Positions 15,955-45,645 of a DNA stretch of 64,000 bases are shown here, one piece after another. The DNA comes from Runella slithyformis DSM 19594 (GTDB lineage: Bacteria > Bacteroidota > Bacteroidia > Cytophagales > Spirosomataceae): the NCBI RefSeq assembly GCF_000218895.1, contig NC_015703.1:309501-373500 (forward strand), read 5' to 3'. The position numbers and the translations under genes were made by a program. Each line of letters starts with the position of its first letter. The stretch's first letter is position 1. The notes beneath the pieces are model-generated. The model saw only the letters and a program-made list of their open reading frames with translations, searched no databases and was not told the DNA's origin.

Positions 15955-16059
15955 GTACTCATACGTACCAAAAAGTGCGCTTCGCACCCTTTGGTGCATT
16001 ACATGGTTTTTGGGTGCCGGGGCTTCAACTTTGTGTCATCACTCAAATAAAAAACAACC

Positions 16060-16818
16060 ATGACAACGGAAATAAAAAGTTACGTACACTTTCACGGTGC
16101 CCCCACGAAGGGTAAGATCTTAATGGTAGCCGGCAGTCCGGCGGTCTCTCAACAAACGGGCTGGCCCATTGGTTTTTGGGCCGCCGAATTGACCCACCCG
16201 CTCCGGGTATTTCAGGAAGCAGGGTACGAGGTGGAAGTGGTGTCGACGGAAGGCGGCGCGCTCTTTATGGATTCGTATTCCAACCCAACCGACGCGAGCG
16301 GCTACTCCGCGCACGATGTCATATCGCTGGGATACCTGCAACAACCGGCCTTCAACGAATTATTGGCCAATACTCAAAAATTGACCGAGGTTAACCCCAC
16401 CGATTACGATGCCATCTTTTTGGTAGGCGGTCAGGGACCAATGTATACCTTTCGTGGCAATAAAGACCTTGAAAAACTTTTTGCCGCTTTTTATGAATCG
16501 GGCAAGCCGAGCGCAGCGGTCTGCCACTCTACAACGTTGCTGCTGGAGGCCAAAACATCGACCGGAGAACTGATCGTCAAAGGTAAAACATGGACGGGCT
16601 TTGCCAATGCCGAAGAAGAGTTTGCGGACCAGGCCGTAGGCATAAAAATCCAACCCTATCGCATTGAAGACGAGGCCCGTAGCCTGAAAGACACCACCTT
16701 CAAAGTAGCCGAGGCGTTCTCGTCCTACGCCATTCAGGACGGGAACCTTATCACCGGGCAACAGCAAAATTCAGGGGCCGCGGCGGCAGTATTGTTGGTC
16801 AACGCATTGGCAAAATGA
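16060..16818 (+). CDS. DJ-1/PfpI-family type 1 glutamine amidotransferase-like protein
   Basis: 252 residues. The nucleophile elbow AVCHS places Cys155 at the usual site, with Glu in PIGFWAAEL and the YDAIFLVGGQGPMYTF strand-turn. This matches the class I chaperone/glyoxalase III branch of DJ-1/PfpI (Hsp31-like), which handles methylglyoxal and damaged proteins. It is cytosolic. Its place among pirin, VOC and YqhD-like genes suggests reactive-aldehyde defence. A palindromic repeat begins directly after its stop. Confidence 0.88.
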   Translation: MTTEIKSYVHFHGAPTKGKILMVAGSPAVSQQTGWPIGFWAAELTHPLRVFQEAGYEVEVVSTEGGALFMDSYSNPTDASGYSAHDVISLGYLQQPAFNELLANTQKLTEVNPTDYDAIFLVGGQGPMYTFRGNKDLEKLFAAFYESGKPSAAVCHSTTLLLEAKTSTGELIVKGKTWTGFANAEEEFADQAVGIKIQPYRIEDEARSLKDTTFKVAEAFSSYAIQDGNLITGQQQNSGAAAAVLLVNALAK

Positions 16819-16920
16819 ATTTCCCGCAGATCAAAGCAGATTTAATACACGCAGATTCTCGCAGAATAAAAATCAGCGCAAATCTGCGCGGGATTCAATC
16901 CGCGGATATCAGCGGGAAAG
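16819..16920. repeat. Dispersed palindromic repeat, copy A
   Basis: About 102 bp bounded by TTTCCCGCAGAT and AGCGGGAAAG, with inner ACGCAGATT and AAATCTGCGC arms. It fills the whole gap between the DJ-1 gene and the GxxExxY stop. Related copies lie at 17371 and 45561 in the same orientation. Confidence 0.8.
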
Positions 16921-16926
16921 AATCAA

Positions 16927-17304
16927 TTACAATCCATTCACTTTCCGAAAGATACTTTTAGAAATATCATCCGAATTGAAATTTACCAAAATCCCGAGTT
17001 TAAGACCGGAAAGTTTAAGGTATGTGATAAGCTGTTTATGATGAACATCCAACAACATTTCAACCGATTTCAGCTCAATAATGACCTTGTTTTCGACCAA
17101 TAGATCAAGTCGGTACCCAATGTCAACTTTGACGCTTTCGTACACCATTGGCAAACCGAATTGATTTTTGACATTCAATCCGGCGTTTTCCAGTTCATAC
17201 AAAAGAGCCGCTTCATAGGCGGACTCCAAAAGCCCCGGGCCTAAGTTATTGTACACTTTAAAGATACAGCCTCTTATCACGTAGGAAATGTCATTTTCGG
17301 TCAT
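16927..17304 (-). CDS. GxxExxY protein (PDDEXK_3-type nuclease-like)
   Basis: 125 residues. The family signature GPGLLESAYE gives G24, E27 and Y30. A PD-(D/E)XK-like core follows: D67 in YRLDLLV, E77-x-K79 in VIIELKS, then Q91xxxY95 in HKQLITYL, an arrangement like RecB/Cas4-type nucleases. All putative catalytic residues are present. The biological role of this family is unknown. The gene is on the opposite strand to its neighbours and sits between two direct copies of a palindromic repeat, 6 bp from copy A and 66 bp from copy B, which suggests insertion as a unit. Confidence 0.85.
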   Translation of the reverse strand: MTENDISYVIRGCIFKVYNNLGPGLLESAYEAALLYELENAGLNVKNQFGLPMVYESVKVDIGYRLDLLVENKVIIELKSVEMLLDVHHKQLITYLKLSGLKLGILVNFNSDDISKSIFRKVNGL

Positions 17305-17370
17305 TTTCTATAAAAATTAAAAGTCATATAAAATTGATATTTTTTTAGTAACAAATTTGTAGAAACAAAT

Positions 17371-17530
17371 CTTTTCCACAGATAAAACCAGATTTAAATG
17401 CAACGCAGATTCTTGCAGAATTAAAAATCAGCGTGTATCTGCGCAGGATTCAATCTGCATTATCTGCGGGAAAGAAGTATTCCCCGCAGATGACGCTGAT
17501 GTAAATGCACGCAGATTTACGCAGAAAAAG
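17371..17530. repeat. Dispersed palindromic repeat, copy B plus a partial copy
   Basis: 17371-17474 matches copy A along its length (ACGCAGATTCTTGCAGAAT, AAAAATCAGCG, GGATTCAATC, GCGGGAAAG). A truncated second unit, 17480-17530, repeats the CCCCGCAGAT to GCAGATTTACGCAGAAAAAG part. It lies upstream of the GxxExxY gene. Confidence 0.8.
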
Positions 17531-17580
17531 AAAAAACAGTCTTTCTGCCACTATTCACAATTACCGCTAAACAAAACACG

Positions 17581-17955
17581 ATGAATGCAATCCAATGGTT
17601 TGAAATCCCCGCCCTGGACCTGGAACGGGCTTTTACCTTTTATTCAGAAATCCTTCACGGCAATGTACGAAAGGGTACGTTTGGCGACGGAGAGTTGATT
17701 CTCTTCAATGTACCCTTCAACACCGGTGAAGCCGTGGGAGGTTCGATTGTAGCCCGTCCGGACCTGATCCCCACTACCGAGGGGCCCATTCTTTACTTAA
17801 ATACTTTCGGTAAATTGAGTGAAGCCGTCAATAAGGTAGAAAATGCCGGCGGAAAAGTTCTCGTCCCGAGGTTGGATTTAGGAAAATTCGGCTTTTCGGC
17901 CATTATTATCGACAGCGAAGGCAACCGTATCGGTTTACTTTCCAATGAACCGTAA
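17581..17955 (+). CDS. VOC-family (glyoxalase/bleomycin-resistance-like) protein
   Basis: 124 residues with two beta-alpha-beta-beta-beta modules. The start IQWFEIPALDLERAFTFYSEI and the end GFSAIIIDSEGNRIGL are typical of the VOC superfamily. The exact chemistry cannot be assigned. It is a single cytosolic domain whose active form is probably a dimer. The next gene begins 3 bp after its stop. Confidence 0.85.
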   Translation: MNAIQWFEIPALDLERAFTFYSEILHGNVRKGTFGDGELILFNVPFNTGEAVGGSIVARPDLIPTTEGPILYLNTFGKLSEAVNKVENAGGKVLVPRLDLGKFGFSAIIIDSEGNRIGLLSNEP

Positions 17956-17993
17956 TCATGAGACCAAGCAGCAAATGGCTGTTGGCTATGTGA

Positions 17994-18728
17994 TTGCGCG
18001 GGCCGACAGCCTTAGCCCAACTCAATGAAAGTGATACGCTGCGTTTTCAGTTGAGAACTTCCCTGACGGACAGCTATCAGCAGGGAAATGTAGCACTGCT
18101 GACGGTGCGGGGACGTCTGGACTTTTCATCCCGTATCCATAACGACTGGGCGGTAAAATCACAAAATTCGGGCTTATACCAAGAATTCAGTCGCATCAAA
18201 GCTGATAATGATGTTTTCAGTCGTAACTTTCTGTATTATAAACCCTTTCGAAAAGTGTATCCTTTTGCCATCGGATTTGTATCGGCCAACTACCGACGTA
18301 AATTGGATTTTCGGTACTTTGTCGGAGCGGGCGGCACGGTGCAGCTTATCCAACGTCGGCACCATGCGCTTAAAGCTTCTGCGGGGATCGTGCGGGAATC
18401 TTCGCATTTTTTAAACAGCGTCTATACGCTTCCGGTTTGTAATGGCAATCGCATCATCAACGTGTGGCGCATGACGGCCCGGGCTATGGGCAAACACGAA
18501 GTGGCCCGTACATTTCGTCTCTTTTACGATTTTTACTGGCAACCGGCCTTAAGCAATGCCCGGAATTATCGTTGGCAGACGGACGTCGGACTGGAATTCC
18601 CGATTTGGAAAGGATTGGCCGTAAATCTTTTATATTTGTATACGTATGAAAATATGGTGGTTGAAACGATAAAACAACAGGACCAATTACTGACCTTTGG
18701 AGTATCGTTTACCAAAAATATCCCTTAA
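17994..18728 (+). CDS. DUF481-like outer-membrane protein, signal peptide broken by TGA
   Basis: About 244 residues of beta-rich, barrel-like sequence (FLYYKPFRKVYPFAIGFVS, NYRRKLDFRYFVGAGGTVQL, HALKASAGIVRESSHF, LAVNLLYLYTYEN, LLTFGVSF), as in DUF481 salt-induced outer-membrane proteins. An ATG at 17958, 3 bp after the VOC gene, opens a signal peptide (MRPSSKWLLAM) that meets an in-frame TGA at 17991-17993. The same frame then continues into RGPTALAQ, a cleavage-site-like end. The only start downstream of the stop is TTG 17994, which would leave no export signal. A nonsense mutation or a sequencing error is likely, so the gene may be inactive. Confidence 0.65.
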   Translation: MRGPTALAQLNESDTLRFQLRTSLTDSYQQGNVALLTVRGRLDFSSRIHNDWAVKSQNSGLYQEFSRIKADNDVFSRNFLYYKPFRKVYPFAIGFVSANYRRKLDFRYFVGAGGTVQLIQRRHHALKASAGIVRESSHFLNSVYTLPVCNGNRIINVWRMTARAMGKHEVARTFRLFYDFYWQPALSNARNYRWQTDVGLEFPIWKGLAVNLLYLYTYENMVVETIKQQDQLLTFGVSFTKNIP

Positions 18729-45560: not shown

Positions 45561-45645
45561 ATTTCCCGCAGATTGTCGGGAATTAAATGCACGCAAATTT
45601 GCGCAGAAAAAAATCAGTATTTACCTGCGACCGGCTGTGGGAAAG
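45561..45645. repeat. Dispersed palindromic repeat, copy C
   Basis: 85 bp starting ATTTCCCGCAGAT and ending GTGGGAAAG, with ACGCAAATTTGCGCAG and AAAATCAGTAT in between, clearly related to copies A and B near 17 kb. No GxxExxY gene accompanies this copy. The rest of the spacer to 45958 holds no supported gene; an imperfect hairpin lies at 45856-45918. Confidence 0.7.

Follow-up and report, generated by a model that had tools for sequence, protein, structure and literature searches.

What is a small nuclease-like gene of Runella slithyformis DSM 19594 doing between copies of a palindromic repeat, and does the encoded protein act on that repeat? The window analysed here is a stretch of 64,000 nt of this genome (NC_015703.1, positions 309,501 to 373,500), and a sequence-only reading of it had proposed, by analogy with REP sequences and their RAYT partners, that the layout is that of a repeat family moved or maintained by a partner nuclease. 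The features on which the question turns are the following.

16819..17580, no strand: interval from the DJ-1 stop codon to the VOC start codon, 762 nt long with the insert (two relatives have 4 and 5 nt here)
16819..16919, no strand: left palindromic repeat copy, words of CGCAGAT/CGCTGAT type in inverted arms, DNA fold z -4.49
16927..17304, minus strand: GxxExxY gene for a PD-(D/E)XK nuclease of 125 aa, with D67, E77, K79, Q91 and Y95
17371..17474, no strand: right palindromic repeat copy, in the same orientation as the left one, DNA fold z -4.36
about 17480..17529, no strand: partial third repeat unit, one arm of CGCAGAT words
45561..45645, no strand: solo weaker repeat copy without a gene, fold z -2.0

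An imperfect palindrome of about 100 nt occurs twice in the same orientation, at 16819-16919 and at 17371-17474, by the boundaries used here 7 and 66 nt from the gene. The sequence-only reading, which gave 6 and 66 nt, had described these copies correctly, and the partial third unit that it saw adjoining them is also present. Folded as single-stranded DNA, both flanking copies (z -4.5 and -4.4) surpass every one of 200 shuffles, while the gene-less copy at 45561-45645, likewise noted earlier, is degenerate and is equalled by 7 of 200 shuffles. No Rfam match was found within 16000-18500, down to E 1. The neighbors of the gene encode a DJ-1/PfpI protein and a glyoxalase-like (VOC) protein, the latter with a match just below the Pfam cut-off.

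In profile searches the window protein matches TIGR04256 (GxxExxY; E 1.6e-41, 141.3 bits against a curated cut-off of 35) and PF13366 (PDDEXK_3; E 2.2e-40, 138.1 bits against 22). The complete PD-(D/E)XK pattern previously read from its letters is a property of the family: in an alignment of 107 of 108 representative proteins (L188 was left out) D67, E77 and K79 are invariant, and Q91 and Y95 are kept in at least 90% of the sequences. The catalytic D...ExK lies in a conserved PD-(D/E)XK fold, which AlphaFold2 models with a mean pLDDT of 95.6. The solved fold closest to this model is SSO0001 (4ic1; Foldseek E 1.7e-3; by VIA, Z 9.9 over 99 residues with an rmsd of 3.7), followed by a Spirosoma restriction-endonuclease-like protein (Z 8.4) and then by Hjc, AddAB and restriction enzymes; lambda exonuclease is also among the Foldseek matches. 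We take SSO0001 to be a Cas4 nuclease, and the QxxxY motif is presumably a further link to the Cas4 and RecB-family nucleases. Cas4 carries a four-cysteine Fe-S cluster, and as cysteine is absent from all columns conserved in at least 90% of the 107 sequences, the window family is not a Cas4 with such a cluster. A Cas4b model is matched by the paralogues L006 (1.2e-6) and L001 (9.5e-4); the window protein itself has no Cas4 profile match, and there is no cas gene among the four neighboring genes scanned. The closest fold, the QxxxY motif and the match of L006 hint at a kinship of GxxExxY with the Cas4/RecB nucleases, whereas its length of about 125 aa, the lack of a conserved cysteine and the lack of a cas neighbor distinguish it from Cas4.

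By sequence, no solved homologue of the window protein was recovered, S100 proteins alone being matched at E 0.24 or worse. Among named proteins the closest come from Dyadobacter (80% identity to the paralogue L001), in agreement with a place of the window in the Bacteroidota. Assignment to a defence family was rejected, the best PADLOC match (0.012) being unconvincing, and matches to PHROGs were weak (best 0.026). The protein shows no HUH/Y1 transposase character, its sole family matches being to PD-(D/E)XK families. The fold also resembles parts of the Wolbachia CinB/CidB factors (Z 6.0-8.3), a resemblance that may be just that of the common PD-(D/E)XK core.

The association of gene and repeat was examined at loci from genus relatives, a phylum sample and named genomes. 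From 279 gene calls (L001-L268), 252 full ones were obtained, of which 13 were dropped (10 with short flanks and 3 with repeated proteins) to leave 239; distant PF13366 members are under-sampled among these because loci were mostly picked by best profile score or by likeness to one clade. At least three words of the form CRCRRAG lie within 200 nt of the gene at 158 of the 239 loci, against 7 of 233 distal windows. GxxExxY genes of related genomes are thus broadly, if not at every locus, flanked by repeats, and the dissociation of the two that would have told against the sequence-only reading is not what we find. The counts are 127 of 168 loci (distal 7 of 163) in the first batch, where the word was discovered, 31 of 71 (distal 0 of 70) in the second, and 58 of 83 (distal 2 of 80) in the held-out loci. 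Averaged over 163 loci, the number of words per 400 nt is 5.06 next to the gene, as against 0.45 in distal windows and 0.31 inside the gene. When any 7-mer is allowed, one that recurs in inverted form at least three times within 150 nt is present at 157/239 loci and 3/233 distal controls, and at 47/239 loci if the downstream flank is swapped for that of a random other locus.

The words are oriented. Within 60 nt of the gene at the 239 loci, 225 point inward and 51 outward on the upstream side, and 301 and 48, respectively, on the downstream side, so that either a large imperfect palindrome encloses the gene in its loop or two palindromes bracket it. Successive words are mostly 8-12 nt apart, with spacers that have no strong consensus across loci. 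A scenario in which the words alone are kept and the palindrome is not was rejected on the strength of 115 matched spacer pairs from the two arms, which agree in length in 61% of cases (24% when shuffled) and in their letters at 0.52 (0.32 when shuffled); given this partial symmetry, hairpin shape may matter beside the word. No listed word class accommodates 35 of the 239 loci, 7 of which have another recurrent word, and 38 fall in a loose GAT class, part of which may be due to chance; this class was dropped as a measure as it also fires in distal windows (15/163 and 13/70).

The window's own genome of 6.92 Mb contains six intact GxxExxY genes and a seventh that is interrupted. Their flanking words, as judged by eye, differ from gene to gene (CGCAATG, CGCAGAT, CACAAAG, CGCGGAT, CACTAAG, CAGGATT and CGCAAAG). 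When exact 7-mers are compared with shuffled sequence, the signal is clear for the window gene, L005, L006 and L008 (0/100) and weak for L003 (1/100) and L001 (6/100), the latter two not standing out in a second test; L004 does so in neither. A series of CGCAAAG-type palindromes is still found behind the interrupted seventh gene (G000:C4:1001762-1002111; L007, L008). The layout first described from the window, repeats bracketing the gene, therefore stands but is richer than was noted, with arms that point inward and words that differ between paralogues.

Within the window's phylum GxxExxY occurs in 152 of 296 sampled genomes, 149 of which pass the TIGR04256 cut-off, often as several paralogues per genome. 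Beyond it, the gene is found in records titled Ignavibacteria/Melioribacter, Chlorobiaceae, Acidobacteria, Planctomycetota, Anaerolineales, Treponema, Anabaena, Methylobacter, Rhizobium and Spartobacteria; as many of these are MAGs, some of the taxon names may result from wrong binning. Most of these loci show clear word recurrence (e.g. L143, L148, L175, L179, L181 and L184), which the Spartobacteria record (L159) does not; L185, from the record titled Anabaena, has a textbook layout with arms that abut the start and stop codons. Very large arrays surround the gene in L061 (one 7-mer 33 times in two 350-nt flanks together), L146, L176 and L084, and several loci are series of whole palindromes. 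In the literature searched, outside which lie subscription papers and preprints, the consulted records contain no function or repeat association for TIGR04256, PF13366 or GxxExxY and, by title, no bacterial genome repeats with six of the word strings; a search for papers on Geobacter repeats gave no match, and CoCoNuT restriction systems were the sole match of a topic search.

Mobile DNA is nearly devoid of the family: one query gave 1 relative in IMG/VR, and it was seen in 7 of 72,556 plasmid records and 0 of 50,697 phage records, on which basis we rejected the view that it is phage, plasmid or viral cargo. The same scarcity would suit a domesticated host function, in which the arrays are sites for a nuclease of chromosome maintenance or repair, for instance one that trims cruciforms, and gene and repeats persist because they serve the host, not because they spread; the strong folding of the two palindromes in the window and the partly symmetric spacers would also be in keeping with this. 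Comparison of the same sites among close relatives speaks against it.

At the window site, in two of 13 genomes of the genus (G004 and G008) the DJ-1 and VOC homologues are separated by 4 and 5 nt in place of 762 and neither gene nor repeat is present; the remaining ones besides the window's have no close VOC homologue. The leuA-leuB interval holds an intact gene in six of the 13 genomes and a broken one in two; it is empty in four, where it measures 16 nt with the leuA stop codon included, and is cut by a contig end in one. Upstream of argH an intact CACTAAG-type gene is found in four genomes and a relic, made up of arms and little of the gene (by eye), in two; seven genomes have neither directly upstream, and in one of these (G010) a CACTAAG array lies about 0.8 kb farther upstream. 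The search for empty sites that the sequence-only reading had proposed thus yields them at three places, and the opposing outcome it envisaged, a gene at the same locus in relatives without repeats, is not seen, the two comparable relatives being without both. No target-site duplication is readable at the compared sites, the relatives being too diverged. As a separate observation, the argH frame is 477-488 aa long in the seven genomes without a directly upstream unit or relic, with an in-frame signal-peptide-like stretch before the usual start, and 446-458 aa in the six with a GxxExxY unit or relic (loci L300-L312).

In five genomes the leuA-leuB site carries units of more than one type. The N-terminal stretches of LeuB are 98-100% identical among them, yet the GxxExxY proteins are 66-73% identical between types and the arm words differ, which suggests that the gene and both arms swap as one cassette or else diverge very fast; immediately beyond the left arm G005 and G010 have the same sequence. 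Different unit types at one site, a patchy presence in which close relatives have broken copies or empty sites, and several paralogues per genome, with different words in the genus genomes examined, speak against a purely domesticated function. The RAYT/REP systems illustrate that benefit and spreading can hold together. We consider the host-function explanation unlikely.

Gene-less arrays of the same kind are scattered through these genomes, and their number depends on the presence of the gene. Among the 296 phylum genomes, at least 10 CAC-type arrays are found in 65 of the 152 with GxxExxY and in 4 of the 144 without it, and at least 10 CGC-type arrays in 57 and 2, respectively. The mean number of CAC-type arrays is 15.3 in gene-bearing and 1.9 in gene-less genomes (1.8 and 1.2 for reversed-pattern controls), a difference that persists in within-family permutation (p<=0.0005, 21 families), and a single pattern reaches 184 arrays in one genome. 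The gene loci themselves hold a mean of 0.85 and a median of 0 CAC-type arrays. Six gene-less genomes nevertheless have at least 10 arrays (4 CAC-type and 2 CGC-type). Two genomes without a TIGR04256 match, G119 with 21 CAC-type and G063 with 17 CGC-type arrays, may have lost their genes or have another partner.

The genome-wide count called for by the sequence-only reading gives 18 matches to the window word in the window's genome, 2 of which belong to the window's own unit. Across the genus (a few partial gene matches were left out, and G002 is 83% complete), the abundance of this word follows its gene: 15, 18, 31, 54 and 54 matches in the five genomes with a CGCAGAT-flanked gene and 0-4 in the eight without one (exact p 0.0008). 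No GxxExxY gene lies within 1.5 kb of 18 of 20 inspected window-word places. Two other words behave differently, CACTAAG arrays away from the gene being equally common in genus genomes without that gene and CACAGAG counts showing no clean separation by gene presence. A comparison of array type elsewhere in the genome with observed gene type (29 against 18 genomes, one-sided p 0.007) gives a modest effect with much overlap, the gene types resting on 1-3 fetched genes per genome.

The proteins and their words co-vary. In a set of 131 loci whose surroundings are not homologous, a locus has the same word as that of the nearest protein in 47.3% of cases (mean of 5000 permutations 12.3%, maximum 26.7%). 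Two loci with proteins 30-40% identical have a word in common in about 1% of cases, whereas above 80% identity 5 of 6 pairs do. The list of word labels in this test was drawn up after seeing the data and leaves 71 of the 239 loci unlabelled. One word may also occur in different subclades, as does CGCAGAT at L002 and L255. Taken together, the association and co-variation of gene and words are, in our assessment, established almost beyond doubt.

The co-variation can be followed to single positions (residues are numbered as in the window protein). In 95 CRCRRAG loci residue 122 is Ile at 46 of 58 with A at base 2 of the word, and Val or Ala at 36 of 37 with G. In close disjoint pairs that differ at base 2 the change from A to G is accompanied by Ile to Val/Ala at this residue in 32 of 35, with none backward, the second-best column standing at 14:1; for base 5, in 40 close pairs, residues 103 (24:0), 7 (23:2) and 8 (18:1) lead. 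The resulting rule was fixed in writing before 83 further loci, free of identical proteins, were analysed, and its test also excluded proteins at least 90% identical to earlier loci. The residue-122 rule was correct at 35 of 43 loci (the carriers of Ile, Val or Ala among 49 usable ones), and at 27 of 34 when the upstream flank alone was read; Ile always went with an A word (13/13) and a G word always with Val (22/22), the exceptions being eight loci with Val or Ala and an A word. The other six loci have Lys or Met at this residue, all with A at base 2. The residue-7 rule was correct at 34 of 43.

Over all columns, residue 122 again came first for base 2 in the held-out pairs (17:0 in 22 pairs, with Val alone as the G-side residue), closely followed by the tail columns 125 (15:0), 124 (15:0) and 123 (14:0), and for base 5 residues 7 (13:0) and 8 (12:0) came first in 20 pairs, with column 76 (11:0) next; given how closely 123-125 trail 122, and 76 trails 7 and 8, single residues are not isolated by these data. 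Overlap of the word with the coding frame was rejected as the source of the residue-122 signal, as just 6 of 131 ORF ends contain a word and the upstream flank alone performs similarly. On statistical grounds we infer that the C-terminal tail reads base 2 and helix 1 reads base 5.

An alternative account of the same correlations is linkage alone, with gene and arms as cargo of another element and the word-protein correlation reflecting shared descent without recognition. Word and clade are indeed partly confounded, and the protein tree is poorly resolved, so few contrasts fall on supported branches (4 and 7 pairs, median p 0.25 and 0.06). But shared descent should spread its signal over many columns, whereas residue 122 led by 32:0 against 14:1 and was first again in new loci, its neighbors 123-125 close behind; words at ORF ends are rare, and the number of arrays depends on gene presence even though the gene loci supply few of them. 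This account is therefore improbable. As shared descent would hardly pick the same few columns twice, we read the covariation as recognition of the word by the protein, which these sequence correlations make likely.

Recognition by itself would also be compatible with autoregulation, in which the arms are operators, the arrays across the genome constitute a regulon and the nuclease fold is used for binding DNA and nothing else. At loci that have CRCRRAG words these are close to the start codon (median distance 27 nt, 123 loci) and to the stop codon (median 11 nt, 127 loci), and residue-base covariation speaks for recognition, not for cleavage. On the other hand, D67, E77 and K79 are invariant in the 107 sequences, as expected of an active nuclease, arms are equally frequent after the stop codon and ahead of the start codon, and whole units are present or absent at given sites. 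We regard autoregulation, too, as improbable.

The system to which GxxExxY is best compared is that of RAYT (TnpA-REP), in which the gene is also flanked by repeats in inverted orientation (PMC2817692, PMC8266576); at the window itself the two whole palindromes are direct copies. The two systems are also alike in that the repeats co-vary with the protein, that their abundance is linked to its presence and that many copies are solo. Orthologous RAYTs are described as diverging faster than their neighbors, with the repeats changing in step (PMC2817692); GxxExxY is likewise more diverged than its neighbor at the one shared site compared, where replacement is the alternative. The differences concern the enzyme, RAYT being an HUH/Y1 transposase and GxxExxY a PD-(D/E)XK nuclease, and the repeat: REPs are short with a GTAG/GT(A/G)G head, whereas GxxExxY arms consist of 7-nt words of the type C[AG]C[AG][AG]AG that succeed each other at intervals of 8-12 nt and make up palindromes (of 85-104 nt in the window), and several words coexist in one genome. 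By flanking, co-variation, divergence at one site and abundance (CACTAAG and CACAGAG excepted), GxxExxY behaves like RAYT/REP, as the original analogy had it, while enzyme and REP form place it outside that class. Insertion sequences and MITEs offer a further parallel in a gene between inverted arms, short gene-less derivatives, occupied and empty sites, and relics; the GxxExxY unit differs in having no transposase, in arms that are word arrays, and in that no target-site duplication was read.

These observations can be accommodated in a single scenario. GxxExxY would be a small Cas4/RecB-like PD-(D/E)XK nuclease that recognizes a DNA word of about 7 bp, repeated in arms that point at its gene from both sides. 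Gene and arms would form one unit, present, broken, absent or replaced by another type at a given site, with gene-less arms of the same kind scattered through the genome. We propose that the protein attaches to its word array and cleaves it, and that repair at the break would copy the arms elsewhere, with or without the gene, or keep the population of arrays alike, giving an autonomous unit with non-autonomous derivatives that resembles RAYT/REP but is built on an unrelated enzyme. The sequence-only proposal that the nuclease acts on the repeat thus gains backing for recognition from the residue-base covariation; binding, cleavage and copying or movement are steps that we infer. We consider cutting together with spread or maintenance of the arrays to be probable, and a word-recognizing GxxExxY nuclease by which arrays are spread or maintained, in the way that REPs are by RAYT, to be the somewhat favored interpretation of the whole. 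Spread, host benefit or both may keep the units.

This raises the possibility, which we hold to be evenly balanced, that GxxExxY is a second, independently evolved class of repeat partner, a stand-alone nuclease of about 125 aa without a transposase, with several words per genome and a residue-to-base code; it extends over about half of the sampled phylum genomes and records titled as eight or more other phyla. If so, repeat-partner systems would have arisen at least twice, with unrelated enzymes, and dispersed intergenic word arrays that are otherwise unexplained would be accounted for. A family known in the literature searched solely by the name of its motif, yet present in 152 of 296 genomes, would then offer a natural library of hundreds of nuclease-word pairs, in which the recognition code of a small nuclease could be tested directly.
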